Assembly: GCA_030429345.1 (NCBI GenBank)
Contig: JAUIFJ010000012.1
Location: forward strand, 62,001-126,000
Origin: a bacterium
GTDB lineage: Bacteria; CAIWAD01
DNA length: 64,000 bases
Reading direction: 5' to 3'
Of the stretch, positions 4,188 to 31,533 are shown in pieces. The translations under genes and the position numbers were made by a program. Numbering within the stretch: the stretch's first letter is position 1; the number at the start of each line of letters is the position of its first letter. The notes under the pieces are model-generated. The model was not told where the DNA came from. It searched no databases and saw only the letters and a program-made list of their open reading frames with translations.

Positions 4188-4245
4188 ATGGGTCTCCGGT
4201 GAATTCTTTCGTCCGAGATTTCTCTGTTTGCGTATGCATGCAGCC

Positions 4246-6597: not shown

Positions 6598-6844
6598 GAG
6601 GTTCTCCTGCGCTGTGTCCCTTTTTGCAAAGGTTGCTGTGTTCTTGAGGATGAGGAAGAGCAGACAGAACCGCAAGGACTGATCCGGACAACCGAAAACA
6701 GCGTCGCGATCGATCGCCGGCTCACCCGGCTACGCCTTCACTGGATTTCCGGTATTGGTCGAAGGCGATGCGTGGTCGATTTTCCCTGTAGGCGAATTGA
6801 CATGCCTCATGGCGAATCCGGATCCCTTTCGTCTGCTTGACCGG

Positions 6845-7807
6845 ATGAAACTCTTTCCCTTGATGCTCTTGAGCCTCTGCTTCCTCCACCTGGCGGGCTG
6901 CGAGGACGATTCTCCTGCACCTCCAGACCTCGGCGAATGGGTCTTCGTTCCCGCCGGAAGCTTCCGCATGGGGGAAACGGGAACTGCCCGCGCCGAGCCG
7001 GAGCATGAGGTCACCCTGACCCGGCACTACTATCTGAGTCGCTACGAGACCACCAACCTGCAATTCGCCTCCATGCTTCAGTGGGCCTGGGAGAACGGAC
7101 GCGTGCTCGCCGACAGCTCGGAAGTGCGCTATCCCTACGGGCAGCATCTGATCCAGCTGATGGACCTCTCGAATCCGGCCTGCGAGATCGCTTTCGACAG
7201 TACGGGTTTCCGGGTACGGGCGTCACGGGATCCAAGGGCACTGGCTGCCTATCCCCAGGGCTACGAGGCGGAGCTGCATCCGGTCAAGCTGCTCTCCTGG
7301 CGGGCCGCGGCGCTCTACTGCGACTGGCGCAGCATCCGCAACGGCCTGGCCCCGTACTACAATGATGAATGGGAACAGGGCGCTGGCCATGATCCCTACC
7401 TGGCGGAGGGCTTCCGCCTGCCGACGGAAGCCGAATGGGAACACGCCGCGCGCTACCCGGACTCCCGGGTCTTTCCCTGGGGCAACCAGCCCCTGACGCC
7501 GCAGCGCGCGGCGTTCCGGCAGTCCTGGTCCAGTCCCGTCGGTTCGAGGCCTTCCGGGGAAAGCGCGCTGGGCCTGGCCGACATGGCGGGCAATGTCTGG
7601 GAATGGACCGACGACGGCTACGGCGAGTATCCCTCTGCCGCAGAGCGCCAGAACCCCCTGGGCCGCTCCGGCGGCTGGCCGCACACCATACGGGGCGGCT
7701 ACTGGGACAACGGCGAATCCCTGTTGCGCACGACGGCGCGCACGAGCTTCGGAGTCGACTACCCGCATGCGGGCATCGGCTTCCGCGTCTGCCGGCTGCT
7801 TCCCTGA
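6845..7807 (+). CDS. FGE-sulfatase domain lipoprotein
   Basis: 320 residues. The chosen start at 6845 gives a lipoprotein signal (MKLFPLMLLSLCFLHLAGC) with lipobox LAGC and lipidated Cys19. An in-frame ATG at 6809 would add 12 residues; neither has a good ribosome binding site. A single FGE domain fills the rest: EWVFVPAGSFRMGE, FRLPTEAEWEHAARYP, PWGNQPLTP, DMAGNVWEWTDD, IRGGYW and GFRVCR at the end. The FGE copper cysteines are missing. It is probably anchored to a membrane and co-transcribed with the next FGE lipoprotein, whose start lies 37 bp downstream. It is divergent from the double-FGE pair. The biochemical role cannot be read from the sequence. Confidence 0.85.
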   Translation: MKLFPLMLLSLCFLHLAGCEDDSPAPPDLGEWVFVPAGSFRMGETGTARAEPEHEVTLTRHYYLSRYETTNLQFASMLQWAWENGRVLADSSEVRYPYGQHLIQLMDLSNPACEIAFDSTGFRVRASRDPRALAAYPQGYEAELHPVKLLSWRAAALYCDWRSIRNGLAPYYNDEWEQGAGHDPYLAEGFRLPTEAEWEHAARYPDSRVFPWGNQPLTPQRAAFRQSWSSPVGSRPSGESALGLADMAGNVWEWTDDGYGEYPSAAERQNPLGRSGGWPHTIRGGYWDNGESLLRTTARTSFGVDYPHAGIGFRVCRLLP

Positions 7808-15247: not shown

Positions 15248-16498
15248 TCAGGTCGTATACTCGGAATTGATCTCCACGTAGCGGCGGCTCAGGTCGGTGG
15301 TCGCCATCCAGGCATTGCCCGGACCCTTCCCCAGGCGCAGGCGGATCTCCACCTGTTCTGCCGCGAAAGTCTGCGACAGGGACTTCGTGTCGACTGCCTG
15401 CGGGGCACCTCGGGTGTATACCGTGTGATCCCCCAGCTCCAGATGCAGCGAGTCCTCTTGCAGCGCGACGCCGGCATTGGCCGCCGCGGCCAGAATGCGC
15501 CCCCAGTTGGGATCGCCTCCGGCCAAAGCCGTCTTCACGAGGCTGGAGGTGGCAATCGCCAGCGCCACCTGCCGCGCTTCCGCATGGCTTTCCGCCCCTT
15601 CGACGGCGATCCGCGCCATGCGCGCGGCCCCTTCCCCGTCCCGGACGATCTGCAGGGCCAGCTCGCGGGCCACCCGCCGCAGCCCCCGGGCGAAGAGCGC
15701 CTCGCGCGCCCCTTCGGGCCGCAGGGCGGGCATGGCGGCTCCTCCGGCGAGGAGCAGCACGCTATCATTGGTGCTGGTGTCCCCGTCCACGGTGATACAA
15801 TGAAAGGAGCGGTCCACCGCCGCTCCCAGCAGCGCGTCCGCCCTCCCCTCCGCCAGCACGGCCTCGCTGCCGATGACGGCCAGCATGGTTCCCATGCGGG
15901 GGTGGATCATACCCGAGCCTTTGGCCGCGCCGCCGATGGTCACACGCCTGGCGGGATCGCCGTCTTCCTCCGGCAGCTCCAGTTCCAGGGCGCACTGCTT
16001 GGTGCAGGTATCCGTGGTCAGCATGGCCGCGGGCACCTCCCGCAGGGCCTCGGAACCCAGGCGGCCCTTCAACCGGTCGAGCCCCGCCTCGACCTTGCCG
16101 ATCGGCAGGGGCACGCCGATCACGCCCGTGCTCAAGACGAGCGCCGGCCCGCCGAAATGTGCTTCGCTGCGTGTCCGCATGCGCTCGGCGTGTTCCAGCC
16201 CCTTCCTGCCGGTCAGCGCGTTGGCGTTTCCGCTGTTGATCACGACACAGGAGGCCCTGGCCGAGTCGGCGAGCATGCGGCGGCAGAGCTGCACCGGCGC
16301 GGCCGGCAAGCGGTTGAGCGTGAAGCGGCCGGCTGCCTGCAGCGGTTCTTCCGCCGCGATCACGGCCAGGTCCGGATTTCCGCTGTCCTTGAGTCCGACC
16401 CCAAGCGCGCCTCCGCGCATCCCGGGCACCGAATGCAAGCCGCCCCCATCGAGAAAGCGGCCCTCGCCGGGCTCAGGCGCTGCAGGTGAGAGAGCCAC
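15248..16498 (-). CDS. argJ: Glutamate N-acetyltransferase / amino-acid acetyltransferase
   Basis: 416 residues from GTG 16498, with AAGGAG 7 bases upstream, overlapping the previous gene by 26 bases. ArgJ moves the acetyl group from N-acetylornithine to glutamate (and in bifunctional forms uses acetyl-CoA). Signatures: INSGNANALTG, TTDTCTKQ, KGSGMIHPRMGTML, DGDTSTND, and the family C-terminus SRRYVEINSEYTT. The self-cleavage site, usually Ala-Thr in ATML, is Gly203-Thr204 here; the Thr nucleophile is kept. It is the last gene of argC-argB-argD-argA-argJ, so a cyclic acetyl-recycling pathway is expected. Confidence 0.95.
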   Translation of the reverse strand: MALSPAAPEPGEGRFLDGGGLHSVPGMRGGALGVGLKDSGNPDLAVIAAEEPLQAAGRFTLNRLPAAPVQLCRRMLADSARASCVVINSGNANALTGRKGLEHAERMRTRSEAHFGGPALVLSTGVIGVPLPIGKVEAGLDRLKGRLGSEALREVPAAMLTTDTCTKQCALELELPEEDGDPARRVTIGGAAKGSGMIHPRMGTMLAVIGSEAVLAEGRADALLGAAVDRSFHCITVDGDTSTNDSVLLLAGGAAMPALRPEGAREALFARGLRRVARELALQIVRDGEGAARMARIAVEGAESHAEARQVALAIATSSLVKTALAGGDPNWGRILAAAANAGVALQEDSLHLELGDHTVYTRGAPQAVDTKSLSQTFAAEQVEIRLRLGKGPGNAWMATTDLSRRYVEINSEYTT

Positions 16499-16961
16499 GC
16501 CTCTGCTCCTTTCCGCTGAAATGGACCCGTCGCCGCATCACATGGCGCCGGGCGCTGAGCGGCAGCTCCTTCCTGGCATCCTTTTCCGGAAGCCGGGAAT
16601 CCTCCGCCCTTTCGAATCCCTGCAGCTGGAAGAAGGCCGGAGTCGTTGTCACACATAGCAATTCGCGTCCGCGCCTCTGCGCCTCGATACAGGCTGCGCG
16701 CACGACCCTTGCCCCCAGGCCATCCCCCTGCCACTCCGGATCAACGGCCACGCTGCGCAGCTCCAGATCCCCTTCCGGCAGGGATTCCAGGCTGGCGGCG
16801 GCTCGCGGACTGCCCGGCGGGCCAATGACGAACCAGTTTCCGATGCCGTCGGCAACCTCCTTCGCCGTGACCGGCAGGCAGCGTGGCACACAGCGTCCGA
16901 CCAGGCGCGCAATGGCACCCGCCTCGGCCGGAAGCGCCTGACGGGGAATTCGCGGATTCAT
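16473..16961 (-). CDS. argA: Short GNAT N-acetyltransferase, probable N-acetylglutamate synthase
   Basis: 162 residues from ATG 16961 (GGAGAAG upstream; 4-base overlap with argD). GNAT acetyl-CoA motif: LRSVAVDPEWQGDGLGARVV, then LCVTTTPAFFQLQGFERAE and LPEKDARKE. This pattern and length match the short stand-alone N-acetylglutamate synthases (Mycobacterium Rv2747 type), which make the first intermediate of arginine synthesis. Position between argD and argJ supports the role. The gene symbol is assigned by context; a different acyl acceptor cannot be excluded. Confidence 0.75.
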   Translation of the reverse strand: MNPRIPRQALPAEAGAIARLVGRCVPRCLPVTAKEVADGIGNWFVIGPPGSPRAAASLESLPEGDLELRSVAVDPEWQGDGLGARVVRAACIEAQRRGRELLCVTTTPAFFQLQGFERAEDSRLPEKDARKELPLSARRHVMRRRVHFSGKEQRRGSLTCSA

Positions 16962-18154
16962 GCGAGCTTCTCCAGGGTCTTGGCGAGGCGCCGTGCTCCT
17001 TCGTCCAGCTCCTCGTCGGTGATACATAGCGGCGGGTAGAGACGGACCACCGGATCCTCGCTGGGGATCACCAGCAGTCCTTCCTCCAGGGCGGCCTTCA
17101 TCACGGCGGCAGCGGATGCGCCCCGCACCTCCAGGCCCAGCATCAGGCCGCGGCCGCGCAGGCCGACGGCAGGCCCCTCCGCCGACAACAGGGGCTCCAG
17201 TGCCTTGCGCAGGCGCTTCCCGGCTCGCTCCACATGCGCCAGGGCCTCCGGCGAGGACAGTTCGTCGAAGACCGCTGCTGCCACATGGGTTACGAAGGGG
17301 CCGCCTCCGAAGGTGCTGCCGTGCATGCCGGGACGCAGCCGGGCGGCAAGGGCCCCGCTCATCAGCACGGCTCCGATCGGGAGGCCGCCGGCCAGGGGCT
17401 TGGCGAGCGTCATCATGTCCGGCCGCAGGCCCGCGTGCTCGTGCGCCCAGAGCGTGCCGCTGCGCGACAGGCCGCTCTGGATCTCGTCGACGCAGAACAG
17501 GGTTCCTGTCTCACGACAGCGCTCCTCGAGACGTCGGAGCCAGGCCGCATCCGCCTCGCGCACTCCGCGTTCCCCCTGGATCGGTTCGACGATCGCCAGG
17601 GCCGTGTCCCTGCCGATCTCCTCCAGGGCGGCGGCATCGTTGAAAGGCAGGCGCTTGTAGCCGGCGGGCAGGGGTTCGAAGGGACGACGATAGTCCGGCC
17701 GGTCCGTGGCCGCCAGCGCGCCCATGCTGCGCCCGTGAAAGGAACCGCTGAAGTAGACGATCTCGCGTGCGTCCCCGCCGGCGACCCGGGCGAACTTGAT
17801 CGCCGCCTCGACAGCCTCCGTGCCCGAGTTGCAGAAGAAGGCCCGGTCGGCGAACGAGCGCTCGCAAAGGCTTTCCGCCAGGCGAACCTGGGGCTCGCTG
17901 TGCAACAGGTTGGAGACATGCAGCGGCAGCTCCGCCGCTTCGCGAAGCGCGCGCAGCACCGCAGGGTGTCCGTGCCCCAGCGAACTCACGGCGATGCCGC
18001 AGGAGAAATCAAGGACATCCCTTCCCCCGCTGTCGAAGAGGCGCGCGCCCTCGCCCTTCGCGAAGAGTGCATCCGCCCGCGCGTAGGTCGGGGCCAGCAC
18101 GTGCTCCGCGCGTGCCACAAGCTCATTGTCGAGATGTGTCGCATCGCCATTCAT
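16958..18154 (-). CDS. argD: Acetylornithine aminotransferase
   Basis: 398 residues. ATG 18154 overlaps the argB stop (ATGA), preferred to the GTG two codons upstream. Class III PLP aminotransferase signatures: FCNSGTEAVEAAIKFAR, GSFHGRSMGALAATD, VEPIQGERGV, FCVDEIQSGLSRSG, and PLP lysine in TLAKPLAGGLPIGAVL. It converts N-acetylglutamate semialdehyde to N-acetylornithine in the cytoplasm. Third gene of the arg operon; overlaps the downstream acetyltransferase by 4 bases. Confidence 0.95.
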   Translation of the reverse strand: MNGDATHLDNELVARAEHVLAPTYARADALFAKGEGARLFDSGGRDVLDFSCGIAVSSLGHGHPAVLRALREAAELPLHVSNLLHSEPQVRLAESLCERSFADRAFFCNSGTEAVEAAIKFARVAGGDAREIVYFSGSFHGRSMGALAATDRPDYRRPFEPLPAGYKRLPFNDAAALEEIGRDTALAIVEPIQGERGVREADAAWLRRLEERCRETGTLFCVDEIQSGLSRSGTLWAHEHAGLRPDMMTLAKPLAGGLPIGAVLMSGALAARLRPGMHGSTFGGGPFVTHVAAAVFDELSSPEALAHVERAGKRLRKALEPLLSAEGPAVGLRGRGLMLGLEVRGASAAAVMKAALEEGLLVIPSEDPVVRLYPPLCITDEELDEGARRLAKTLEKLA

Positions 18155-18921
18155 ATGCACACCGCCGTTCCGCCGAAGGCGCGCATGGCCGCCAGGTCAC
18201 CGATGCGCACGCGGCTCACGCCGGCGCGGATCGCTTCCGCGGCCGCGCGGATCTTGGGCCGCATGCCCCCGTGAATCACGCGCTTCTCGATCAGTCGCCG
18301 CGCCTCCGAAAGGCGCAGGAGCGGCAGCACCTCGCCCTGCTCGTCCTTGACTCCGGGGATGTCGGACACGAAGGCCAGTTCCTCGGCGGCCAGCGAGACG
18401 GCCAGGGCGTGGGCGGCGTCGTCGGCATTGACATTGACCATGCCGCCGTCCTCCGCCAGCGCCACGGGCGCGATCACCGGCATGCGCCCGGCCTGCAGCT
18501 GCTCGCGGACCAGGTCCGGCCGCACGCATGGCGGCAGGCCCACGCGGCCCAGGCGATCCTCGTCCCGCAGCGCGGAGCGCAGCACTCCGCCATCCACTCC
18601 CGAGAAGCCGACGGCAGGCAGGCCCTGCGCCAGGCAGGCCGCCGTGAGACGCTTGTTGACCAGGCCGCAGAGGGCCATCAGCACCACTTCCAGGTCCTTC
18701 TCCTCCGTCACACGCAGGCCCTCGACGCGCCGGGGCTCCATTCCCAGGACGCCCTGCAGCCGGTCGATGTCCGGCCCGCCGCCGTGTACGACAACGGCCC
18801 GGCGTCCCTTGCGGCGCAGCGCCTTGAGGTAGCCGCAGAAGGCCTTCAGGTCCTTGTCGGCGACCAGGTTCGCTCCGCCGACCTTGACCAGGGTCACCGT
18901 GTCGGATGTGTGGTTCTTCAT
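18151..18921 (-). CDS. argB: Acetylglutamate kinase
   Basis: 256 residues from ATG 18921 with AAGGA upstream. Amino-acid kinase fold: VKVGGANL near the N-terminus, VVVHGGGPDIDRL, VNVNADDAAHALA, FVSDIPGVKDEQG, VIHGGMRPKI. It phosphorylates N-acetylglutamate. Length is typical of the E. coli-like form; it lacks the long N-terminal helix associated with arginine feedback inhibition, so control may lie elsewhere. Thirty bases separate it from argC. Confidence 0.92.
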   Translation of the reverse strand: MKNHTSDTVTLVKVGGANLVADKDLKAFCGYLKALRRKGRRAVVVHGGGPDIDRLQGVLGMEPRRVEGLRVTEEKDLEVVLMALCGLVNKRLTAACLAQGLPAVGFSGVDGGVLRSALRDEDRLGRVGLPPCVRPDLVREQLQAGRMPVIAPVALAEDGGMVNVNADDAAHALAVSLAAEELAFVSDIPGVKDEQGEVLPLLRLSEARRLIEKRVIHGGMRPKIRAAAEAIRAGVSRVRIGDLAAMRAFGGTAVCI

Positions 18922-18951
18922 CGAATCGTCCTTGCCTTGTGTTCGGGGTTC

Positions 18952-19998
18952 TCAAAGGCGCAGCCCGAGAGTCTCGGGCCAGCCCTGCATCACGTTCATG
19001 TTCTGCACTGCCGCTCCGGCAGCGCCCTTTCCCAGGTTGTCGATGGCGCAGCTCACCAGCAGCCAGCCGGTCGCCTCGTCGTGCGTCAGGCTGATCACCG
19101 CCTTGTCGCGTCGCGCCACACAGCGTATGCGGCTCTCCTTTCCGGGGGGCAGCACTTCGACCAGCTTCTCCTGCGCGAAGTGCCGTCGGTAGAGCCGCTG
19201 AGCGCCTTCCCCGTCGAGTCCGCTGTCCTGCACCAGGCAGTTGGCCAGGATCCCCCGTTCGAGCGGCACCAGCTGCGGCACGAAGAAGAGAGGCGGGCAT
19301 TCGCCGCCCTCCCCGTGATCCAGGGCCGCCTGCGCCAGGACCTGCTCCATCTCCGGCACATGGCGGTGTGCCCGCCCGGGCTTGTAGGGCCGCACATCGT
19401 CGTGCGCCGAGCAGAAATGGGTCAGCGGAGTGGCGGCCCGCCCCGCTCCGCTCAGGCCGGATTTCGCATCCACGTAGACGGGGTTGCGCAGCAGGCCGCT
19501 CCGGGCCAGGGGCAGGAGGGCCAGTTCCACGGAGGTGGCGTAGCATCCCGGATTGGCCACGAAGCGGGAAGCGCGCAGTTTCCGGCGATTGCTCTCCGGC
19601 AGTCCGTAAACGGCCTTTTCGGCGAGGGCCTGGTTGCGCTGGGATCCGTATACACGCTGGTGAAGGGATTCCGCGCGCAGGCGATGGTCCCCTGAAAGGT
19701 CGATCAGCGCGCAGCCGCGGGCATGCAGCTTTTCAGCCGTCTCCGCCGAGCGCCCGTGGGGCAGGCACAGAAAGGCCAGGTCGATCTCTTCTTCCAGGGC
19801 CTGCTCCGGAAGAAGCAGGGACAGGTCGGGAGCGGCGGGGTCCACATCCGGCAATCGGATGTCCTTCGCTTCTCGAGTGCTGCCGAAGAGCAGCTCGACG
19901 CCCGGATGCGCCTGCAGGCGCTCCGCCAGTTCGATGCCAGTGGTTCCGGTTACGCCGAAGATCCCGGCCCGCAGGGAGGGGGTGGTTGCAGCCTGCAC
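18952..19998 (-). CDS. argC: N-acetyl-gamma-glutamyl-phosphate reductase
   Basis: 348 residues from a GTG at 19998, chosen because AAGGAAG lies 7 bases upstream and the family NAD(P)-binding motif begins soon after (GIFGVTGTTGIELAERL). The open frame continues to 20115 but covers the promoter region. Catalytic cysteine in NPGCYATSVELAL; C-terminus has NLGKGAAGAAVQNMN. It reduces N-acetylglutamyl phosphate to the semialdehyde. First gene of the arg operon, divergent from the sigma-54 activator gene at 20170. Confidence 0.93.
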   Translation of the reverse strand: MQAATTPSLRAGIFGVTGTTGIELAERLQAHPGVELLFGSTREAKDIRLPDVDPAAPDLSLLLPEQALEEEIDLAFLCLPHGRSAETAEKLHARGCALIDLSGDHRLRAESLHQRVYGSQRNQALAEKAVYGLPESNRRKLRASRFVANPGCYATSVELALLPLARSGLLRNPVYVDAKSGLSGAGRAATPLTHFCSAHDDVRPYKPGRAHRHVPEMEQVLAQAALDHGEGGECPPLFFVPQLVPLERGILANCLVQDSGLDGEGAQRLYRRHFAQEKLVEVLPPGKESRIRCVARRDKAVISLTHDEATGWLLVSCAIDNLGKGAAGAAVQNMNVMQGWPETLGLRL

Positions 19999-20040
19999 GC
20001 GGCTTCCTTGTTTTTCCTGGACGATGCTTTCGCAGTCCAA

Positions 20041-20059
20041 CTGGCAGGAAGCGTGCCAG
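20041..20059. promoter_or_regulatory. Inverted repeat in argC upstream region
   Basis: CTGGCA and TGCCAG form a perfect 6-bp inverted repeat with a 7-base spacer, about 45 bases upstream of the argC start. It is a candidate operator or enhancer site. No classical ArgR box is visible nearby. It is short and could be chance. Confidence 0.25.
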
Positions 20060-20098
20060 ATTGTATCTCTTTTCAAATCATGAGCTTGTATTTTGACC

Positions 20099-20128
20099 TT
20101 GACATTATCGGACAACTATGGCCTATTT
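20099..20128 (+). promoter_or_regulatory. Candidate sigma-70 promoter of the sigma-54 activator gene
   Basis: TTGACA at 20099-20104 and CTATTT at 20123-20128 are separated by 18 bases in the AT-rich interval between argC and the activator gene. The -35 is perfect, the -10 poor. Confidence 0.4.
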
Positions 20129-20169
20129 GATGGGACAATGAAGACACATTGCATGGAAACAGGTCAAGG

Positions 20170-21594
20170 ATGTCCGAAACCCGCAAACAATTGTTGCTCC
20201 TGGGGGCTCGACCACTGCAGGAGCGCCTCGAATCCTGGGGCTATTCGACCCTGCACTATGCCGGCACGAAAGAGCTGCTGGCCGAAGCGCCCGAGGTCGG
20301 CGCCCGCGCCTGCATCGCTTCGCTGGAGCTGGTACCGGCAGAGGAACTGCCGCAGTTCATCCGCCGACTGCGCTCCGTGATTCCCTTCATGGACGTGGTC
20401 GGCTGGGCGCCCGGGGCGACACCGGAAAAGGTCCGCAGCGCCTTGCAGGCGGGCTTGAAGGACATTGTGCTACACGTGGATTCGCAGGATCTGCGCGAGC
20501 GGCTGCAGCGCGTGATCGCCCGGCAGCAGTTCCTGCCCCGCCTGCTGGAGCACCGCGGCCGCGCGGAAACCTGGCGCTTCGAGGGACTGCTCAGCCGGGA
20601 CAGCGCCATGCACAGCATCTTCGATACAGTCGTGCGCACGGCTCCCACGGACGCCACGGTGCTCGTGATGGGCGAGACGGGAACGGGCAAGGAGCTCCTG
20701 GCGCGCGCGTTTCACAATCGTTCGGAAAGGGAGGGGCCGATGGTGGCGCTCAACTGCGCCGCCGTGCCGGAGAACCTGATCGATTCGGAACTCTTCGGCA
20801 ACGAGAAGGGTGCCTTCACCGGCGCCACCAGTCCGCGGGACGGGCTCTTTCGCCACGCCGAAGGCGGCACGCTGCTGCTGGATGAGATCGGCAGCATTCC
20901 CGAACCTGTGCAGAACCGCCTGCTCCGCGTGCTGCAGGAGGGCGCGGTGCGTCCGGTAGGCGGACAACGGGAGGTGCCGGTGGATGTGCGCATCATTGCC
21001 GCCACCAGCCAGCACCTGGACACCCTCGTCGGCGAAGGCCGCTTCCGCGAGGACCTGCTCTACCGGCTGGATGTGATACGCATCCAGATTCCGCCATTGC
21101 GCGAACGGCCCATGGACGTGATCTACCTTTTCAGCGTCTTCATGAGCAACCTCTCGTCGAGCTACAAGCTGCAGAGGCACGAGGTCTCCGACAGCTTTCT
21201 CGACGCCCTGCAGACCTACGACTGGCCGGGAAACGTGCGCCAGCTGGAGAACTTCGCCGAGCGCGTGCTGTTGACCGTGCCCTCCTCCGAGCGCCTGAAG
21301 GCCGAGCACTTCCGCAAATACGTCATGCCGATGAGCGAACACGAAAACGCGACGGATTCCGCGCCGCGCACTCCCGCCAGCAATTTCCCGCAGCCGGATC
21401 CGAAGCTTCCGCTTCCCCGGGCCCTGCAGATGGCCCAGGCGTCGCTGGAGAAGTCCTTTCTGCACCAGGCGCTCAAGGCCAACCGCGGCGCTATCGGCGA
21501 AAGCGCGCTCCAGCTCGGCATCAGCCGTCGCACGCTGCAACGCAAGATGCAGCGCTACGGCCTGCAGCGGCAGGCCTATCGCCCGGACCGTTGA
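20170..21594 (+). CDS. Sigma-54-dependent transcriptional activator with pseudo-receiver domain
   Basis: 474 residues from ATG 20170; a TTG at 20149 is an alternative and neither has a strong ribosome binding site. Residues 1-120 have receiver-like secondary structure but lack the acidic pocket (LLLLGARP instead of VDDE) and the phospho-Asp position is a Leu (~52). AAA+ domain: Walker A GETGTGKE (168-175), sigma-54 loop GAFTGA (214-219), Walker B GTLLLDEIG (~233-241), arginine fingers in FREDLLYRLDV. C-terminus: Fis-type helix-turn-helix (GESALQLGISRRTLQRKM). So it should activate sigma-54 promoters without classical phosphorylation. Divergent from argC and upstream of the ATP-grasp operon; its targets are unknown. 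Confidence 0.9.
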   Translation: MSETRKQLLLLGARPLQERLESWGYSTLHYAGTKELLAEAPEVGARACIASLELVPAEELPQFIRRLRSVIPFMDVVGWAPGATPEKVRSALQAGLKDIVLHVDSQDLRERLQRVIARQQFLPRLLEHRGRAETWRFEGLLSRDSAMHSIFDTVVRTAPTDATVLVMGETGTGKELLARAFHNRSEREGPMVALNCAAVPENLIDSELFGNEKGAFTGATSPRDGLFRHAEGGTLLLDEIGSIPEPVQNRLLRVLQEGAVRPVGGQREVPVDVRIIAATSQHLDTLVGEGRFREDLLYRLDVIRIQIPPLRERPMDVIYLFSVFMSNLSSSYKLQRHEVSDSFLDALQTYDWPGNVRQLENFAERVLLTVPSSERLKAEHFRKYVMPMSEHENATDSAPRTPASNFPQPDPKLPLPRALQMAQASLEKSFLHQALKANRGAIGESALQLGISRRTLQRKMQRYGLQRQAYRPDR

Positions 21595-21679
21595 GCCAGG
21601 CCCTTATCGCCGAGCGGCCTTCCCGGGGTCCGGGACCGGCCCTTCGTGATACACGATCCCCTTCAGGATAACACCGCTC

Positions 21680-21709
21680 TTGCCTTTGTGACCCCATGAG
21701 TGCTAGTAT
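21680..21709 (+). promoter_or_regulatory. Candidate promoter of the ATP-grasp operon
   Basis: TTGCCT (21680-21685), 18-base spacer, TAGTAT (21704-21709). The predicted transcript would carry a leader of about 150 bases before the ATG at 21869. Confidence 0.5.
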
Positions 21710-21795
21710 GCCTCGCGCACGCAGGGTCTCCGGGAACACGCTTTCCTTGTGTATCACATCATGAATATCCGGATCCTGCGGAACACGGCACGCAC

Positions 21796-21816
21796 GCCCG
21801 CGGTACAAGCGCGGGC
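21796..21816 (+). other. Leader hairpin upstream of the ATP-grasp gene
   Basis: GCCCGCG and CGCGGGC form a perfect 7-bp stem with a 7-base loop in the untranslated leader of the operon. It has no U-tract and matches no riboswitch I recognise. The rest of the 21595-21868 interval holds only the promoter and the palindrome GGTCCGGGACC near 21628. Confidence 0.4.
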
Positions 21817-21868
21817 CGGCCCGATGCACGGCCGAACACTGCATCACGGAACCTGAAAGGAGCACGGA

Positions 21869-23089
21869 ATGCCTTCCCCACGACGCCGCAAGATCGCCCT
21901 GCTGGGCTACATGATCGAGGCCATGGAAGCCGCCCGCAGCCTGCAGTACGACTTTGTCTGTGTCGTGCCGCCCGAATTCGTCGCCTCCCTGGAGGCCGAC
22001 GGCGTTCCGGCCGTCGGCTGGGACTTCGGCAGGATCAACGAACAGTCCACCGACCTGGCCCGCCAACTGCGGGAAGCCGAGGTCAGCCTGGCGATCCCCT
22101 TCTACGAGGAGACCGTCGAATGGGCCGGCGCGCTCAACGCCCAGTTCCTCGAGGATCCGCGCATCTTCAACCGCTCCCTGCTCTTCCGCGACAAGGCGAT
22201 GATGAAACGCAAGGCGCAGATGAGCGGCATTCGCGTCGGGGTCTTCGAGGAAGTCGACAGCGCCTCCGACGCGCTCACCTTCTTCCGCCGCGTCAACAAG
22301 GCCCTCGTCAAGGGGCCGGAGGAGGATCCGGAACCGGTGCACCTGAAGCCGATCAGCGCGGCGGGCAGCGTGGGCCACTTCATGGTGAGACAGGAAGAGG
22401 ATCTGGACGAGCTGCCGGCCGAGGTCTTCCCCTGCCTGGCGGAAAGCCACCTGGCGGGGCAGGAGTTCTCCTGCGAGGTATTCATCCAGGACGGCGTGAT
22501 CCGCTTCCTGAACATCAACGAATACATCCACCTGGGCTACAGCCAGCTGCTGCCGCCGACTCCGGCCCTGGAGCGGCACCGGCCCAGGATCCGCCAGGAG
22601 ATCGAGAAGCTGATCCGCGCATTCGGCTTCCGCAACGGGGTCCTGCACCCCGAGTATTTTCTGGACGAGAACGAGGAGCTCAACTTCGGCGAGGTGGCCA
22701 ATCGCGTGCCGGGCGGACACATTTTCGAACTGATCCAGCGCGCCTACGGATTCGATCCCTTCGCCGGCCTGATCCTCTGCAGCGATCCGGACACGACGGA
22801 CGAGGAACTGGCCGCCTTCTTCCCCGACGAACGCGAAGGCAAACGTGGTCACGCGGGGAACGTGCTGATCTACCCCCGCCGCAAGGAGATCCACGAACTG
22901 CGGATACCGGACGAGCTGGAGGCCGAGGACTACTACCACAGCCACGATCTCTTCGAACCGGTCAACTCGAAAGTGGCCGAAAGAGCGGGCTTCGGCAACC
23001 ACTACGGCAAGGTCGACTTCTTCGGCGAGGATCCGGATCGCCTGCGCGAGGTGCTACAGCGCTTCGAATCCCTGGAGTACTACATCTAG
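21869..23089 (+). CDS. ATP-grasp ligase-family protein
   Basis: 406 residues from ATG 21869 (AAGGAG 8 bases upstream). An N-terminal pre-ATP-grasp region (KIALLGYMIEAMEAARSLQ) is followed by the ATP-grasp fold: LLFRDKAMMKRKAQMSGI, VHLKPISAAGSVGHFMV (nucleotide Lys), EEFSCEVF-like GQEFSCEVFI, and the metal region NGVLHPEYFLDENEELNFGEVANRVPGG with Glu and Asn ligands. The family couples a carboxylate to an amine or thiol with ATP. The substrate is unknown. First gene of a tight operon with a papain-like protein and an alanine racemase homologue, suggesting ligation involving a D-amino acid or small peptide (inference). Confidence 0.85.
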   Translation: MPSPRRRKIALLGYMIEAMEAARSLQYDFVCVVPPEFVASLEADGVPAVGWDFGRINEQSTDLARQLREAEVSLAIPFYEETVEWAGALNAQFLEDPRIFNRSLLFRDKAMMKRKAQMSGIRVGVFEEVDSASDALTFFRRVNKALVKGPEEDPEPVHLKPISAAGSVGHFMVRQEEDLDELPAEVFPCLAESHLAGQEFSCEVFIQDGVIRFLNINEYIHLGYSQLLPPTPALERHRPRIRQEIEKLIRAFGFRNGVLHPEYFLDENEELNFGEVANRVPGGHIFELIQRAYGFDPFAGLILCSDPDTTDEELAAFFPDEREGKRGHAGNVLIYPRRKEIHELRIPDELEAEDYYHSHDLFEPVNSKVAERAGFGNHYGKVDFFGEDPDRLREVLQRFESLEYYI

Positions 23090-23118
23090 CCGCTTCGGCC
23101 TTGTACGACAGGAATCGA

Positions 23119-25116
23119 ATGGCAAACACCGCGACACGGGAGGTCCCAGTGCAGGAGGAAATCCGCAAACGCAGCCGCCGCTTCGAAGAGGCGTTGGCCG
23201 AACTCGAAGCGGCGCCGCCCTTTGCCAAGGCGCGCTACCAGACCGCTGTCTTCCGTCGCTCGACGGACCTGCTCGACGCGAGGGAAGGCATTCCGCTCGT
23301 CTACGAATACGCCGGCCGCTTCGACGCGGCGGGCGTGTTCCACGGCGGCCCCTGGGAAGCCCCGGCGAAACTGCTGCCCCAGCTGGTCGGAGTGGGCCTG
23401 CTGGGCGACGGCGTATACCCCAGCGTGGAGGCGCTCAGCGAACTGCGGGTGCTGGCCATCGCCGAAGGAAAGGCCGAAGGCCGGGATTTCAGCGCCGACG
23501 AGGCGGCCGAGTTCCTGCGGGAGGTCGTGGCCAAGCACCTGCACCTGCTCTACCCCGGGGAAACCGAGGACCGCCGCTCGCGGCCCCGCATCTACTTCCG
23601 CGCCGAGAGCCTCCTGCGCTTCATTGCCGACCACATCGGCCTGGAAGGCCTGCGCGAGCAGGTCATCGAGGAGATCGAACTGCTCTGCGTGCAACGCCCG
23701 ATCGCCACGGACCGCATCCGCGGCCTGCTCGAGATGGCGAGGCGCATCGAGCCGGGGAAGGAAAGCGACGAGGCGCAACGCACGCTGGATCTGTATACGC
23801 AGGCGGTCGGAGCGCCGACAGCGGGCAGCCGGGCGACCGCGGAGCCCGGCTCCTACCGCGACTGGATCCGGGAAGCCGGGCCCGCCGCCCTCGGGGAGGA
23901 GGCGCGCTCCTTCGCCGAGTCCCTTTGTCGCACAGGACTTGGCAGCCCCTTCCATCCGGTCCTGCTGCGTTTCCTGCAGAAGAACGACCCTTCGGGCCTG
24001 CCGGGCGCGCTGGGGCTGAGTGAAACCGGCTCGGCGGAACTGTTCCGCAACGCGGAACTGGCGGGACAGCTGCTGCGGGCGTCGCTCTTTCCGGCGACGG
24101 CCGACGCGCTGACCGGCTTCCGGGGCATGCTCGAGCGCGGACTGCTCTCGCGGCGCGAGGTGGCGGGCGGACTGCGCCGGCTGCTGGACCTGGACATTCT
24201 TCCATCGGTCCGCGAGATGCTGCTGGACTCCCAGGCGGACACGGGCGGCCTCTCCCCGAACAACCTGCTGCTGGCGGCGGCGATCCGCGTGCTCGGCCAG
24301 CCCCTGGGCGTGGGACAGGGGAACAACCCCACCTGCCAGGCGGCGCGGGGCATCAGCCTGTGGAGCCTGCACGCTCCCGGCCTCCTGCTCGGCATGGCGG
24401 CCAACGCCGCCCGGGACGGCACCGTTGAATGCCGTTTCGAGGGGCAGGTGCTGAGCTCCGGGCAGATCGTATACGAAGGCAGCTACGACACGCGTTCGCT
24501 TTCGGTCGATCCCCTTTCGAGCCTGCTGGTGCCGCACCTGGATCGCCTCTACTTCCGCATGCAGCAGCTGGCCGCCTACCGGGGGGAGGACCCGCACCGC
24601 TGGATCAATCCGGCCCTGTATGGGCGCTGGGTGCCGACCCAGTTCGAGTCCGTCCTGGATCCGGCCAGCGGCGCTGTCCGCGACCATGGCGGATTCGTCC
24701 GCCGCTTCTTTGCGACACACCACCCCGACTACAATGAGGGCCATGAGCTGCTCTACCCCAATCCGGTGGGCCTGATGGTAACCAATGTACACGGCCGGCT
24801 GCTGGGCCCCCACGCGGTCTCGATCCAGCGCATCCGCAGGGACCCGGACGGCGCATTGAGGATCTACTTCTTCAATCCGAACACCGAGGGCCGACAGGAC
24901 TGGGGCATGCAGGTTCGTCCGAGTGTCCGCGGGCACGGCGAGGCGCACGGCGAGTCCTCCCTGCCCTTCGGGAGTTTCGTCTCACGGATGTATGCCTTCC
25001 ACTACGATCCCTACGAGATGGGCGAGGTCTACGCCGTCCCTTCCCCCACCGTGGAGGAAGTCGGCCGCATGGCGCGCGAGAGCTGGGCGCGCGAAATGCC
25101 CTGGCTGGACTCCTGA
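23119..25116 (+). CDS. Uncharacterised protein with papain-like catalytic domain
   Basis: 665 residues from ATG 23119; its TGA overlaps the next ATG by one base (TGATG). Residues 1-~375 are helical and match nothing I recognise. The C-terminal part has spacing like a papain-fold thiol enzyme: Gln400, Cys406 (GQGNNPTCQAARG), His565 (GPHAVSIQRIRRD) and Asn586 (RIYFFNPNTEG), followed by DWG. The Gln-to-Cys distance of six equals papain Gln19-Cys25. No signal peptide, so it should act in the cytoplasm, perhaps as an amide-forming or amide-cleaving partner of the ATP-grasp enzyme. Assignment of the fold is inference from motifs. Confidence 0.7.
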   Translation: MANTATREVPVQEEIRKRSRRFEEALAELEAAPPFAKARYQTAVFRRSTDLLDAREGIPLVYEYAGRFDAAGVFHGGPWEAPAKLLPQLVGVGLLGDGVYPSVEALSELRVLAIAEGKAEGRDFSADEAAEFLREVVAKHLHLLYPGETEDRRSRPRIYFRAESLLRFIADHIGLEGLREQVIEEIELLCVQRPIATDRIRGLLEMARRIEPGKESDEAQRTLDLYTQAVGAPTAGSRATAEPGSYRDWIREAGPAALGEEARSFAESLCRTGLGSPFHPVLLRFLQKNDPSGLPGALGLSETGSAELFRNAELAGQLLRASLFPATADALTGFRGMLERGLLSRREVAGGLRRLLDLDILPSVREMLLDSQADTGGLSPNNLLLAAAIRVLGQPLGVGQGNNPTCQAARGISLWSLHAPGLLLGMAANAARDGTVECRFEGQVLSSGQIVYEGSYDTRSLSVDPLSSLLVPHLDRLYFRMQQLAAYRGEDPHRWINPALYGRWVPTQFESVLDPASGAVRDHGGFVRRFFATHHPDYNEGHELLYPNPVGLMVTNVHGRLLGPHAVSIQRIRRDPDGALRIYFFNPNTEGRQDWGMQVRPSVRGHGEAHGESSLPFGSFVSRMYAFHYDPYEMGEVYAVPSPTVEEVGRMARESWAREMPWLDS

Positions 25117-26291
25117 TGGAACACGGACAGCGCGCCGTGCGCCACTCCTCGCGCATCGAGCTCAGTCTCGGGGCGCTGAGGCAGAACCTGGGTTTCACGC
25201 GCGAGCTCATCGGCCGGCAGGCGCGCATCTCGCTGGTCGTCAAGGCCAATGCCTACGGACACGGCTATGCGGCCATCGTCAAGATGGCGGAACGCTGCGG
25301 CATCCGGCACTTCTCGGTGGCCTCCTCGCAGGAGGCCGAGGAGGTGCTGGCGGCCGTGCGCGAGGACTCGCGCGTGATGATCATGGGCATTCTCTACGAC
25401 GAGGACCTGCCCTGGATCATCGAGCACGACATCGAGTTCTTCGTCTACGATCTCGAACGGCTGAAACACGCCGCCGGGATCGCCGGCAGCATCGGCCGGC
25501 CGGCGCTCGTGCACCTGGAACTGGAGACCGGCGGCAACCGGACAGGCCTGGCCGCCGCCGAGCTGCCGGAGGCCCTGCGCCTGCTCACGCGCAACCGGCG
25601 GCAACTGCAACTGGCGGGAGTCTGCACCCACCTGGCCGGCGCGGAAAGCCTGGCCAACCGCTTCCGCATCACGCAGCAGCTGCAGCTCTTCCAGCAGCTG
25701 CGCAGGAGGATCGCGCGGGCGCGCAGCCTTGAACCCGCGTATCACATTGCCAGTTCGGCGGCGACGGTCGCCCTGCCGGAAAGCCGGCTGGACATGGTGC
25801 GGGTCGGCAGCCTGGCCTACGGCCTCTGGCCCAGTCCGGACGTGCGCGACCTCTACCTGATGCATCACAAACCCGCCAGGAGCAATCCGTTGAAGCGGGT
25901 CTTCAGCTGGAAGACCGACATCATGCAGGTCAAGTCGGTATCCCGGGGGGAATTCGTCGGCTACGGGACCTCCTTCCAGGCCCATCGCGACAGCCGGATC
26001 GCCGTCCTGCCCATCGGCTACGGCAACGGCCTGCCCCGCGAACTTTCCAACCGCGGCACCGTGCTGATCCGCGGCCGCCGTGCGCCCATCGTGGGCAGCA
26101 TCAACATGAACCTCTTCTTCGCGGATGTGACCACCATCCCCGAGGCGCAGGTCGGCGACGAGACCGTTCTCGTCGGCAGGCAGCGGAACAACGAGATCGG
26201 CCTGCGCTCCTTCACCGAGTTCAGCTCCGCGCTGAACACGGAGTTCGTCTGCCGGCTCCCCGCGGGCATCCCCCGCACCATCATCCGCTGA
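25116..26291 (+). CDS. alr: Alanine racemase-family PLP enzyme
   Basis: 391 residues, ATG overlapping the previous stop. Fold-type III PLP racemase: PLP lysine in SLVVKANAYGHGYAA; THLAGAES; SSAATVALPESRLDMVRVGSLAYGLWPS; the catalytic Tyr region EFVGYGTSF; IGYGNGLPR; C-terminus RLPAGIPRTII. Where classical Alr has a VSMD-type motif this one has SINMN, so it belongs to a divergent subgroup and may prefer another amino acid. It makes a D-amino acid, normally D-alanine for peptidoglycan. Its place after ATP-grasp and papain-like genes suggests a dedicated product. Confidence 0.85.
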   Translation: MEHGQRAVRHSSRIELSLGALRQNLGFTRELIGRQARISLVVKANAYGHGYAAIVKMAERCGIRHFSVASSQEAEEVLAAVREDSRVMIMGILYDEDLPWIIEHDIEFFVYDLERLKHAAGIAGSIGRPALVHLELETGGNRTGLAAAELPEALRLLTRNRRQLQLAGVCTHLAGAESLANRFRITQQLQLFQQLRRRIARARSLEPAYHIASSAATVALPESRLDMVRVGSLAYGLWPSPDVRDLYLMHHKPARSNPLKRVFSWKTDIMQVKSVSRGEFVGYGTSFQAHRDSRIAVLPIGYGNGLPRELSNRGTVLIRGRRAPIVGSINMNLFFADVTTIPEAQVGDETVLVGRQRNNEIGLRSFTEFSSALNTEFVCRLPAGIPRTIIR

Positions 26292-27893: not shown

Positions 27894-28237
27894 AGGCGTT
27901 TGTCGGACGGCTAGCTGGGATCGCGCGTTCCAGGCGCATCGATCACTTGACCAGCATCATCTTCCGCGCGCTGTGGCCGCTTTCCGTCTGCAGCCGGGCG
28001 ATGTACAGCCCGGAGGGCCGGCCGGCCGCGTGGAAGACCGCTTCGTGCTCGCCGCCGGCCAGCATGCCGTCGATCAGCTGTGAGACAAGGCGACCCTGCA
28101 GGTCGTAGACGGCCAGGGAGACAGCGCCCGTCTCCGGCAGCGTGAAGGCCAGGGTCGTGGCGGGGTTGAAGGGATTGGGCACCGGAGCCTGCAGGGCGAA
28201 GGCCCGCGGCAGGTCGCGGGCGTCGGCCGTGGGGCTG
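27861..28237 (-). repeat. Long direct repeat copy 1 (terminator plus sorting-module 3' end)
   Basis: These 377 bases recur at 29901-30277 at a constant offset of 2040 with 9 mismatches by eye. The unit covers the terminator hairpin, the untranslated tail and the coding sequence for the ~98-residue C-terminal sorting module. Confidence 0.95.
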
Positions 28238-29526
28238 CTGTTGGGCGCAGCGGGCGTGCCGCCATCCACATAGCTGATCTGCCAGCTCGAGGCCAGGGCG
28301 TTGTCGAGGGCGGGATCGATCAGTTCGAGACTCGGTCCGTCGCCATCGGCCTCGCCGGGCCAGTCGCCGCCGTCGTCGTACTCGACCGCATCCACCTGGG
28401 CGCCGCCCGCCGTGTTCAGGACCAGCTCCTCGCCGCCGTTGGACAGGGCGCCGCTGTCCCACTCGTAGTCGGGCAGGAAGCCGAAGGCATTCTCGAACTC
28501 GGATTCGTCGACTGCCAGCACCAGGAACGCGCCCGGTGCGATGGCGGCACCCGCCGGGAAGGTGAAGGTGAATCCGTCGAAGTACCATCCTTCCAGGTCG
28601 ACTGTCGTGCTGCCGTTGTTGTAGAGCTCGAGGAATTCGAGCACATCCTCGCCGGCGGGATTGTACATGATCTCGTTGATCACGATGTCCAGGGTCCCGC
28701 TGAAGACCGTGTAGCTGTACCAGTCGCTGCTTGCGCTTTCCGCGTCGTCGTCTGTCGCCGTGACACGGTACTCCACGACGGATCCGGCGACCTGCCCGGG
28801 GATCACGGACTCGAAATCATCTCCGCTCATCAGGATCATCGGCTGGGACTGTAGCGGCCCGGCATCGACCGTGTACTCCAGGGTCACGCCGAAGACCATG
28901 CTTTCGTCGACGACCGTGGCGGTCACGGTGACGGCCTCGGCGGGGTTGACCAGCTCGGGATCCTGGATCACGCTGACGATCACGGGAGGACCGCCGAGAG
29001 CCTCGAAGGCGCTGTTCTGGGCGCCGGGAGTGCCGTTGCCGCTGCTGGCGGCCCAGTTGCTGCCGTCGTTGTTGTCCAGGGCCGGGTTCTTCAGTTCCAG
29101 GCTCGGTCCGTTGCCGTCCGGGTCGCCTGTCCAATCGCCGCCGTCATCGTAGTCCACGACATCGATCACGGCGAGGCTGCCGTCGACGAGCTCGATGTCC
29201 TCGCCGCCGTTGCTCAGGGCGCCGCTGGTCCACTGCAGCACGCCCGTGAGGCCATAGGTCGACATGATGGCTGCGGCATCCACACCGATCACCAGGTAGC
29301 CGCCGGCAGGCACGATGGTGGGATCTGGAAAGACATGGTCGACTCCCTGGGTGAAGGACCAACCACCCATGTTGACGTCGGATCCCCCGGTGTTGTAGAG
29401 CTCGATGTACTCGTTGATATCCGTTCCCGACTCGATCGGGTTGTACATGATCTCGTTGATCACGATGTCCGCCGAAGCGGCACCGGCCAGGGCGAGGCCG
29501 GCAAGACAGATCAAGGCATTCTTCAT
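27943..29526 (-). CDS. Secreted protein with two lamin-tail domains and sorting module
   Basis: 527 residues from ATG 29526 (AAGGAAGAG upstream); signal peptide MKNALICLAGLALAGAASA. Two lamin-tail domains, each starting DIVINEIMYNP (~20-150 and ~300-430), contain SNGGEDIELVDG or SNGGEELVLNTAG and YDDGGDW. They are separated by an Ig-like segment (VEYRVTATDDDAES). The C-terminal ~95 residues are the sorting module (PVPNPFNPATTLAFTLPETG, ARKMMLVK). The domain combination is typical of extracellular proteins and nuclease accessories in FCB bacteria; no catalytic motif is seen. Confidence 0.88.
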   Translation of the reverse strand: MKNALICLAGLALAGAASADIVINEIMYNPIESGTDINEYIELYNTGGSDVNMGGWSFTQGVDHVFPDPTIVPAGGYLVIGVDAAAIMSTYGLTGVLQWTSGALSNGGEDIELVDGSLAVIDVVDYDDGGDWTGDPDGNGPSLELKNPALDNNDGSNWAASSGNGTPGAQNSAFEALGGPPVIVSVIQDPELVNPAEAVTVTATVVDESMVFGVTLEYTVDAGPLQSQPMILMSGDDFESVIPGQVAGSVVEYRVTATDDDAESASSDWYSYTVFSGTLDIVINEIMYNPAGEDVLEFLELYNNGSTTVDLEGWYFDGFTFTFPAGAAIAPGAFLVLAVDESEFENAFGFLPDYEWDSGALSNGGEELVLNTAGGAQVDAVEYDDGGDWPGEADGDGPSLELIDPALDNALASSWQISYVDGGTPAAPNSSPTADARDLPRAFALQAPVPNPFNPATTLAFTLPETGAVSLAVYDLQGRLVSQLIDGMLAGGEHEAVFHAAGRPSGLYIARLQTESGHSARKMMLVK

Positions 29527-29982
29527 GGCTCTTCCTTCGGTTTTCAGGCGTTGTTGCAAACGGGTTGAATCAGGCACAGGCAGGGCCATGGCGGACCCTG
29601 CGCATCTTGTCTTGGTCGTGATTCTTTCCGCGACTAGGCGCGGCAGGGCTCGGGGCTGGATCTCGGCGGGCAAGCCGGAATCCCCCGATGGCCATCGAAA
29701 CCCCCTCTCCCGGGGCAGCGACGGGCGGTCAGGCAGGGCCTTCGGCAGAGAACGGCCGCCTGACGGCCAACAGGAAGACACTCGAAGGTTAGATCGCGAT
29801 AAGCATCCGGTTAGTTCCGGCCGGAACACGCTCCCCGGGCGAAGCGGGTACCCGAACGGAGAGATGGCGGAGCGCCAGTTGCCCTCCTTCGCACGACAAA
29901 AAACCCCGGCTCCGCAGCATGCGGAACCGGGGGAGGCGTTTATCGGACGGCTAGCGGGGATCGCGCGCTCCAGGCGCATCGA
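29527..29982. other. Intergenic interval, 456 bp
   Basis: Holds the terminator of the upstream gene at its right end, a 12-bp perfect palindrome TTCCGGCCGGAA at 29815-29826 and a direct repeat GGTTAG nearby. The promoter of the lamin-tail gene should lie here but no convincing pair of hexamers is visible. No coding frame is credible. Confidence 0.5.
29898..29933 (-). terminator. Rho-independent terminator of the 29983 gene
   Basis: Same hairpin as at 27864-27893, here followed on the minus strand by an uninterrupted run of six or more T. Confidence 0.85.
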
Positions 29983-30277
29983 TCACTTGACCAGCATCAT
30001 CTTCCGCGCGCTGTGGCCGCTTTCGGTCTGCAGGCGGGCGATGTACAGCCCGGAGGGCCGGCCAGCCGCGTGGAAGACCGCTTCGTGCTCGCCGCCGGCC
30101 AGCATGCCGTCGATCAGCTGTGAGACAAGGCGACCCTGCAGGTCGTAGATGGCCAGGGAGACGGTGCCCGTCTCCGGCAGCGTGAAGGCCAGGGTCGTGG
30201 CGGGGTTGAAGGGATTGGGCACCGGAGCCTGCAGGGCGAAGGCCCGCGGCAGGTCGCGGGCGTCGGCCGTGGGGCTG
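29901..30277 (-). repeat. Long direct repeat copy 2 (terminator plus sorting-module 3' end)
   Basis: Second copy of the 377-bp unit described at 27861. Identity ends abruptly at the codons preceding the sorting module in both genes, so the module behaves as a cassette. Confidence 0.95.
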
Positions 30278-31533
30278 TCCAGCCGGCTCAGGCTGAAAGT
30301 GAAGGGCTGGCCGTCCCACTGGAAACCGTCGACGACCGCGTAATACATTCCGGCGGGATAGTCGCCGCTGATCGTCTCGCTGCTGCCGATCAGCCAGGGC
30401 ATGGCCAGGCAGTCTGCTGGATCACAGCTGCCGAGCAGGACCAGGTCCAGCTGCTCGCTGTCGCTGGAACTCAGCTCCAGGTGCAGGGGACCACCGGGAT
30501 GATCGATGGCAAAGATCACTTCCGGCGCGGTCTCGCCCGTGAAGCAGTAGCCGCTCCACAGGTTGCCGTTCTGCGAATCGGCACTGGAGCCGTTGACGGT
30601 CTCGCCCAGCGCCAGCGGCAGGGCGGAGGCGCAGGGGTCCAGGTCGCCGGGACAGGTCACATCCAGCTCGAAGGTGAAGGGGGCGCCGTTCCAGTTGTAG
30701 GCGTCGACGACCACGTAATACGTGCCGGCCGCGTAGTTGCCCGAGATCGACTCGCTGCTGCCGACCAGCCAGGGCATGGCCAGGCAGTCCGCCGGATCAC
30801 AACTGCCGAGCAGGACCAGGTCCAGCTGCTCGCTGTCTGTCGAACTCAGCTCTAGCGAAAGAAAGCCGCCCGGGTGCTCGAGGGAATAGATCACCTCGGC
30901 ACCGCTCTCGCCGCTGAAGCAGTAGCTGGTCCAGGTGTTGCCGTTCTGCGAATCGGCACTGGACCCCGTCATGGTCTCGCCGCAGGTCAGCGGAATGGCG
31001 TTCTCGCAGAAGTCCTGGCTGCCCAGGCACTGCACATCCAGGGTATAGCTGAAGGGAACTCCGTCCCAGAAATAGGCGTCGACGACCACGTAGTAGGTGC
31101 CGGCAGCGTAGTCGCCGGAAATCGTCTCGAAACTGCCGACCAGCCAGGGCATGGCCAGGCAATCCGCCGGATCACAGCTGCCGAGCAGCACCAGGTCCAG
31201 CTGTGCGCTGTCCGGGCTGTCGAGGGTAATGCTGAGCAGCCCGCCGGGGTGGTCGATCACATGCAGCACCTCCGGCGCCGTTTCGCCGGAGAAGCAGTAG
31301 GCCTCCCAGAGGTTGCCGTTCTGGGAATCGGCCGAACTGCCGGTGTAGACCTCGTTGCAGGCCAGTGGAATCGCCAGGTCGCAGGCCGTCTGCTGGTCGC
31401 GGGAGCCGGAGTCCGCAATGGCGTCTCCGCTGTGGGTCTGCATCTGGCCGTTTTGCACCGGCGCCGACTGGCTGGCGGCATGCAGGGAGCTGGCCAGTAG
31501 CCCGAGACAGAGCGGAGTCAGGAAATGGGTCAT
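29983..31533 (-). CDS. Secreted protein with three pre-peptidase-like repeats and sorting module
   Basis: 516 residues from ATG 31533 (AGAGGA upstream); signal peptide MTHFLTPLCLGLLASSLHA. Three ~120-residue repeats each carry GSSADSQNGN, YCFSGE or YCFTGE, DHPGG or EHPGG, LDLVLLGSCDPADCLAMPW, and AGTYYVVVDAYxWxG. This resembles PPC/pre-peptidase C-terminal beta-sandwich domains, with conserved Cys pairs in CDPADC. The C-terminal ~95 residues are the sorting module, nearly identical to that of the next gene. The same repeat occurs in the gene at 35192. Confidence 0.85.
   Translation of the reverse strand: MTHFLTPLCLGLLASSLHAASQSAPVQNGQMQTHSGDAIADSGSRDQQTACDLAIPLACNEVYTGSSADSQNGNLWEAYCFSGETAPEVLHVIDHPGGLLSITLDSPDSAQLDLVLLGSCDPADCLAMPWLVGSFETISGDYAAGTYYVVVDAYFWDGVPFSYTLDVQCLGSQDFCENAIPLTCGETMTGSSADSQNGNTWTSYCFSGESGAEVIYSLEHPGGFLSLELSSTDSEQLDLVLLGSCDPADCLAMPWLVGSSESISGNYAAGTYYVVVDAYNWNGAPFTFELDVTCPGDLDPCASALPLALGETVNGSSADSQNGNLWSGYCFTGETAPEVIFAIDHPGGPLHLELSSSDSEQLDLVLLGSCDPADCLAMPWLIGSSETISGDYPAGMYYAVVDGFQWDGQPFTFSLSRLDSPTADARDLPRAFALQAPVPNPFNPATTLAFTLPETGTVSLAIYDLQGRLVSQLIDGMLAGGEHEAVFHAAGRPSGLYIARLQTESGHSARKMMLVK

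Follow-up and report, generated by a model that had tools for sequence, protein, structure and literature searches.

Positions 15248 to 26291 of the window, the 64,000-nucleotide stretch of contig JAUIFJ010000012.1 analyzed here, are best explained, with moderate confidence, as a horizontally mobile biosynthetic cluster that would provide a non-ribosomal route to an ornithine-containing, peptide-like metabolite, where both product and reactions are predicted. The initial annotation had described three of its genes as a coupled triad with a 29-bp gap and a 1-base overlap. This layout and its coordinates were confirmed: a 406-residue ATP-grasp amidoligase-like protein (21869 to 23089, forward strand) is followed after 29 bp by a 665-residue protein, here termed P665 (23119 to 25116, forward strand), and a 391-residue racemase (25116 to 26291, forward strand) starts on the final base of the stop codon of P665 (ctcctgATGgaa). 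The linked ornithine-synthesis genes, which are often duplicated, lie outside the region covered by that annotation and are the strongest clue.

The ATP-grasp and P665 genes are a near-obligate pair and form the conserved core of the cluster. Among 80 P665 loci, 72 carry the ATP-grasp gene in the same locus, mostly directly upstream. All 8 genomes with the remaining loci, which have no complete copy close by, encode the ATP-grasp protein elsewhere or on another contig, and where the surroundings of the displaced gene were examined, it usually adjoins a second P665. A search of genomic neighborhoods revealed co-occurrence of the genes beyond the window genome, while the racemase was present at only part of the loci. 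It is the third gene in 34 of the 80, which are of Bacteroidota type apart from a few unassigned bins and the window genome, and the order ATP-grasp, P665, racemase recurs in Bacteroidota loci. The triad is thus a conserved set whose core is the pair, the racemase being a lineage-restricted third gene. At least 530 relatives of P665 were recovered in a scan of species genomes, and the pair occurs in at least several hundred species of several phyla, although its larger member has no Pfam or NCBIfam entry. The family appears to be rare, since a wide sample of 386 genomes yielded no additional carrier. A plasmid search returned one Halomonas record, which lacks annotation.

Each counted genome with the racemase has one P665 copy, and the others have one to five. 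Two Marinobacter genomes (L111 to L117) encode four and five paralogues at separate places, which may act on different substrates; a glutamate-cysteine-ligase-like, an M14-like and an aminopeptidase-like open reading frame were seen by eye beside them. In Pseudalkalibacillus (L029 to L031), one P665 copy lies away from the ATP-grasp gene, which is found with a second P665, and the lone copy stands beside levansucrase- or sucrase-like open reading frames in two of the three genomes, as judged by eye. At Nitrospira-type loci (L008, L010 and L122), P665 is followed by a conserved 90-residue protein that belongs to no family and by a DAACS-type transporter. A contig labeled Chryseobacterium sp. 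ISL-80 (L012) holds a Bacilli-type locus with two P665 copies and the Bacilli GNAT acetyltransferase, and this record is probably mislabeled.

P665 matched no Pfam or NCBIfam model at an E value of 0.1, so that no named papain-like family was reached, and no PDB sequence was matched. The AlphaFold model of the full-length protein (pLDDT, 89.7) consists of an all-helical region (residues 1 to 371; 23119 to 24231, forward strand) followed by a part of mixed secondary structure (residues 372 to 665; 24232 to 25113, forward strand). The initial annotation had noted a papain-like spacing of four residues, which lie in this second part. Their positions were correct, and all four, Gln400 (codon 24316 to 24318, forward strand) at the oxyanion-hole position, Cys406 (24334 to 24336, forward strand) at the nucleophile position, His565 (24811 to 24813, forward strand) and Asn586 (24874 to 24876, forward strand), are identical in 89 of 89 aligned homologues and likewise in an alignment of 58 diverse sequences. 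The spacing is therefore not due to chance. Rather than being scattered in the predicted structure, the residues adopt the papain arrangement in a DSSP assignment of the model, with Cys406 opening the helix of residues 406 to 418, His565 within the strand of residues 561 to 574, and Asn586 directly after the strand of residues 580 to 585.

The full-length model had no Foldseek match at an E value of 0.001, and calpain cores ranked at the top in VIA-align (Z score, 7.4). When the C-terminal domain was modeled alone (pLDDT, 88.4), the best Foldseek match was the calpain-9 core (probability, 0.97), with a best E value of 1.2e-3. VIA-align matched this domain to calpain-3 (Z score, 7.6; 196 residues aligned; root mean square deviation [RMSD], 4.6 Å), the peptidase of PCAT1 (Z score, 7.1; 121 residues; 2.9 Å) and the phytochelatin-synthase-like protein Alr0975 (Z score, 6.5; 145 residues; 4.2 Å), and nearly all VIA-align matches listed were papain-fold enzymes. 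Every Z score lies below 8, and it is the consistency of the matches that argues, with moderate confidence, for a papain-like fold in the modeled domain. The conserved Gln/Cys/His/Asn order and the modeled papain fold both fit clan CA. P665 shares this order and its modeled fold with the calpain core, the C39 peptidase of PCAT1 and Alr0975, the last of which illustrates that a papain-like fold can process a small peptide via an acyl enzyme. It differs from all three in lacking a sequence family match, in its large helical N-terminal part, and in its operon with a ligase.

The ATP-grasp protein falls within its superfamily by one Pfam model (PF13535, ATP-grasp_4; 30.3 bits, cut-off 27), and residues E262, E275 and R279 are invariant. 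The best PDB matches to its profile were 4wd3 (8.9e-11) and 3vot (5.6e-5), so by sequence affinity alone the nearest solved relatives appear to be L-amino acid ligases (4wd3; BL00235, 3vot). These ligases share the ATP-grasp fold with the cluster enzyme; however, they act singly, whereas the cluster enzyme is tied to P665.

The third gene encodes a fold-type III PLP racemase resembling alanine racemase (TIGR00492 alr, 260.7 bits; cut-off 168). Every member checked retains KANAYGHG, and GYGT is retained as well. The SINMN motif described in the initial annotation is present where alanine racemases have (V/C)xMD, but it is not unique: MN alone says little, because it also occurs in the lysine racemase Lyr (4dza) and in another racemase encoded by the window's own genome. 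That second copy (L123; contig C21, about 5878 to 7029) has INMN, is 45% identical to the window copy and keeps the Tyr; by eye, the adjoining open reading frame resembles a class-III aminotransferase. The same genome encodes a further alanine racemase, 28% identical to the window copy and with a higher alr-model score.

The substrate site departs from that of alanine racemases. At the position of BsAlr Tyr354, the window racemase has Thr and most Bacteroidota members have Asn; the Tyr at this site sets alanine specificity, and Asn is reported there for the serine racemase VanT (PMC3485190). Lyr also has Thr at this position. On the other hand, every racemase member matched by pattern (one was unmatched) has NRTG, as against RNG in Lyr. 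Lysine-type racemases are marked by an Asn beside the PLP-contacting Arg, which is Thr here, so the window enzyme does not classify with Lyr and Bar. The fold type and catalytic motifs are shared with BsAlr, Lyr and Bar, but the window racemase has Thr, rather than Leu or Asn, after this Arg, and by alignment it has Glu at the Lys129 position of BsAlr. Judged from these residues, ornithine or another polar or basic substrate would fit.

Upstream of the ATP-grasp gene, a sigma-54-dependent activator (20149 to 21594, forward strand; Pfam PF00158) is divergent from a run of ornithine-synthesis genes on the reverse strand. These are argC (18952 to 20115; TIGR01850, 297 bits, cut-off 233.6), argB (18151 to 18921; TIGR00761, 210.6 bits, cut-off 151.3), argD (16958 to 18160; NF002325, 401 bits, cut-off 372), a short N-acetylglutamate-synthase-like GNAT protein (16473 to 17027; GNAT Pfam domains and weak matches to amino-acid N-acetyltransferases) and argJ (15248 to 16498; NF003802, 408 bits, cut-off 351). 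The argD product lies above the PRK01278 cut-off and just below that of TIGR00707. With argC, argB, argD and argJ each over a cut-off, the acetyl-type pathway to ornithine is represented. The activator is co-conserved with the cluster, having homologues at 7 loci of the set and at L096, and it probably controls the cluster. No convincing -24/-12 site was found before the ATP-grasp gene or argC, and a scan for sigma-70 promoters found none.

Linkage to these genes recurs. At least one of argC, argB, argD and argJ is present at 23 of the 80 loci, and at least two at 20; by our own estimate, chance linkage would be roughly 0.5% for one 14-kb interval in a 4-Mb genome. In a deltaproteobacterial MAG (L007/L096), the sigma-54 gene, argC, argB, argD, argJ, a GNAT gene, the ATP-grasp gene and P665 form one block, and a separate argG-argC-argD-argB set is found elsewhere in the genome. 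Ectobacillus and Neobacillus each have two argC and two argJ genes over the cut-off, one set of which is linked. In a tree of ArgC, the linked copy of the window genome forms one clade with 100/100 support together with those of four distant genomes, namely one of the Planctomycetota, one of the Polyangia, the deltaproteobacterial MAG and an unassigned bin; the window sequence sits on a long branch and is unusual in composition. Linked copies from Bacilli cluster with the ordinary argC genes of Bacilli, and those from Bacteroidota make up a third group, distinct from the ordinary argC of Bacteroidota. The arg genes were thus joined to the pair on more than one occasion.

The window genome has one copy each of argC and argJ. 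Three genomes of the same family lack argC, argJ and P665 altogether, an indication that the genes were acquired as a block. No argG over the cut-off was found in this genome, although the MAG is 98% complete and argG could be hidden; the arg block is therefore hardly there for arginine synthesis. A strong ornithine carbamoyltransferase homologue is encoded elsewhere in the genome, and some ornithine may find minor use for citrulline or in arginine breakdown.

Collectively, these findings suggest a pathway in which the argC-argB-argD-GNAT-argJ side, whose gene identities are clear, would supply L-ornithine to the divergent operon, where it could serve, more speculatively, as the amine or acid partner. 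From what is known of the enzyme families, the ATP-grasp protein would convert a carboxylate via an acyl phosphate to an amide, as in L-amino acid ligases, and P665 would form a thioester at Cys406 and perform a second acyl transfer (transpeptidation, cyclization or trimming), His565, Asn586 and Gln400 acting as their counterparts do in papain. Where the racemase is present as a third gene, it might turn ornithine, or an already ligated residue, into the D-form. The expected product would be a small, peptide-like metabolite that contains ornithine and, in some lineages, an acetyl group. Counting against this pathway, 57 of the 80 loci have no argC, argB, argD or argJ within about 6 kb, so ornithine may not be the substrate at every locus; the AblB-like neighbor in Halobacillus is a lysine-type enzyme, and in Cyclobacterium the pair adjoins the ordinary arg operon. 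A more far-reaching proposal, which we put forward tentatively and with less confidence than the pathway itself, is that P665 founds a new class of papain-fold acyl-transferases which, with a dedicated ATP-grasp enzyme, build an ornithine metabolite (D-ornithine here) in hundreds of species, the ornithine supply having been gained in separate events in at least three lineages.

Acetyl and peptide chemistry is also encoded near the pair, and would suit a product that is acetylated, a dipeptide, or both. A GNAT gene precedes the ATP-grasp gene or P665 at eight loci, and at fifteen Bacilli-type loci another kind of GNAT is encoded upstream. Four Halobacillus and Salimicrobium loci hold an AblB-like beta-lysine acetyltransferase (241 bits in the member scanned; cut-off 205), histone-deacetylase-like proteins are present at six loci, and S58 and M19 peptidases occur at one Wenzhouxiangella locus. 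The window GNAT was considered as a homologue of the GNAT preceding ATP-grasp elsewhere, but this was rejected, as the two did not match and the window protein is N-acetylglutamate-synthase-like.

The most plausible use of the product would be as a compatible solute, since many hosts come from saline sites or soda lakes. By record titles, the hosts include Halobacillus, Salimicrobium, Halomonas, Marinobacter, Wenzhouxiangella, Natronospira, Indibacter and soda-lake MAGs. In this narrower form of the pathway, the product would specifically be an acetylated or amide-capped ornithine dipeptide, made by a logic like that of N-acetylglutaminylglutamine amide, an acetylated amide-type dipeptide. The AblB-like enzyme adjoining the pair in Halobacillus and Salimicrobium is in line with this. 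It is suggestive, too, that Halobacillus halophilus is reported to accumulate N-delta-acetylornithine (PMC2412884), but acetylornithine alone would need neither an ATP-grasp enzyme nor P665. Freshwater and soil hosts (Neobacillus, Lysinibacillus and Nitrospira) also count against it, several hosts being ordinary soil Bacilli, and we regard a role specifically as a solute as possible but doubtful.

A little less probable still is that the ATP-grasp enzyme alone is biosynthetic, with P665 acting in regulation or as a peptidase that breaks the product down. The papain fold is mainly hydrolytic and peptidase genes lie beside some members; however, the near-obligate pairing with a ligase, the up to five paralogues per Marinobacter genome and the strict retention of the four residues suggest that P665 performs a committed synthetic or processing step. 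We consider it very unlikely that the cluster modifies a carrier protein or another protein in the manner of LysW/LysX, with the ATP-grasp enzyme attaching an amino acid that P665 then releases or moves. LysX is indeed an ATP-grasp enzyme working with ArgB/C/D-like enzymes, and papain-fold enzymes often cut isopeptides. Here, in contrast, ArgB scores 210.6 as argB against 125.3 as LysW kinase and ArgJ is present, so that the protecting group is acetyl, and no conserved small-protein neighbor was noticed among open reading frames of at least 90 residues.

The initial annotation had favored a D-amino-acid-containing peptide or a cell-wall role; the gene set suits a peptide-like product and a D-amino-acid product is possible, but no positive evidence for the cell wall was found. 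ATP-grasp enzymes, racemases and papain-fold amidases do occur in peptidoglycan metabolism, ATP-grasp enzymes being described in cross-links (PMC2922099), yet the addition of a D-amino acid to peptidoglycan by the racemase and ligase, with P665 trimming or transferring cross-links, is highly improbable, as P665 has no signal peptide or transmembrane segment evident by eye, no mur, ddl or FemX-type neighbors were noticed, the genes that recur beside the pair are those of the arg set, GNAT genes and regulators, and the best PDB sequence matches of the ATP-grasp protein are dipeptide ligases.

The proposed ornithine pathway belongs to a kind of operon that is already known: Iyer and colleagues reviewed ATP-grasp operons for non-ribosomal peptides that combine ligases with papain-like enzymes and genes for amino-acid supply (PMC2922099), as this cluster does. 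In line with the statement that no named system with this triad is known, our literature searches, whose coverage excluded the most relevant 2009 amidoligase survey, found no description of it, of the P665 family, or of the ATP-grasp/P665 pair with an argCBDJ ornithine supply. Compared with the route to N-acetylglutaminylglutamine amide, a known solute (PMC1224877), the cluster shows ornithine genes and no glutamine amidotransferase was seen. Because ornithine genes are linked to the pair, the substrate can be tested immediately. Should the product prove to be a compatible solute or a D-ornithine peptide, a widespread metabolite would have been missed so far, and a papain-fold enzyme would serve synthesis rather than breakdown.

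Two further features were observed in the window. At 27943 to 31533, two neighboring surface proteins have near-identical C-terminal sorting tails of the Por_Secre_tail type, with repeated DNA at their 3' ends. At 1830 to 6675, two adjacent large proteins each contain a formylglycine-enzyme-like (FGE-sulfatase) domain.
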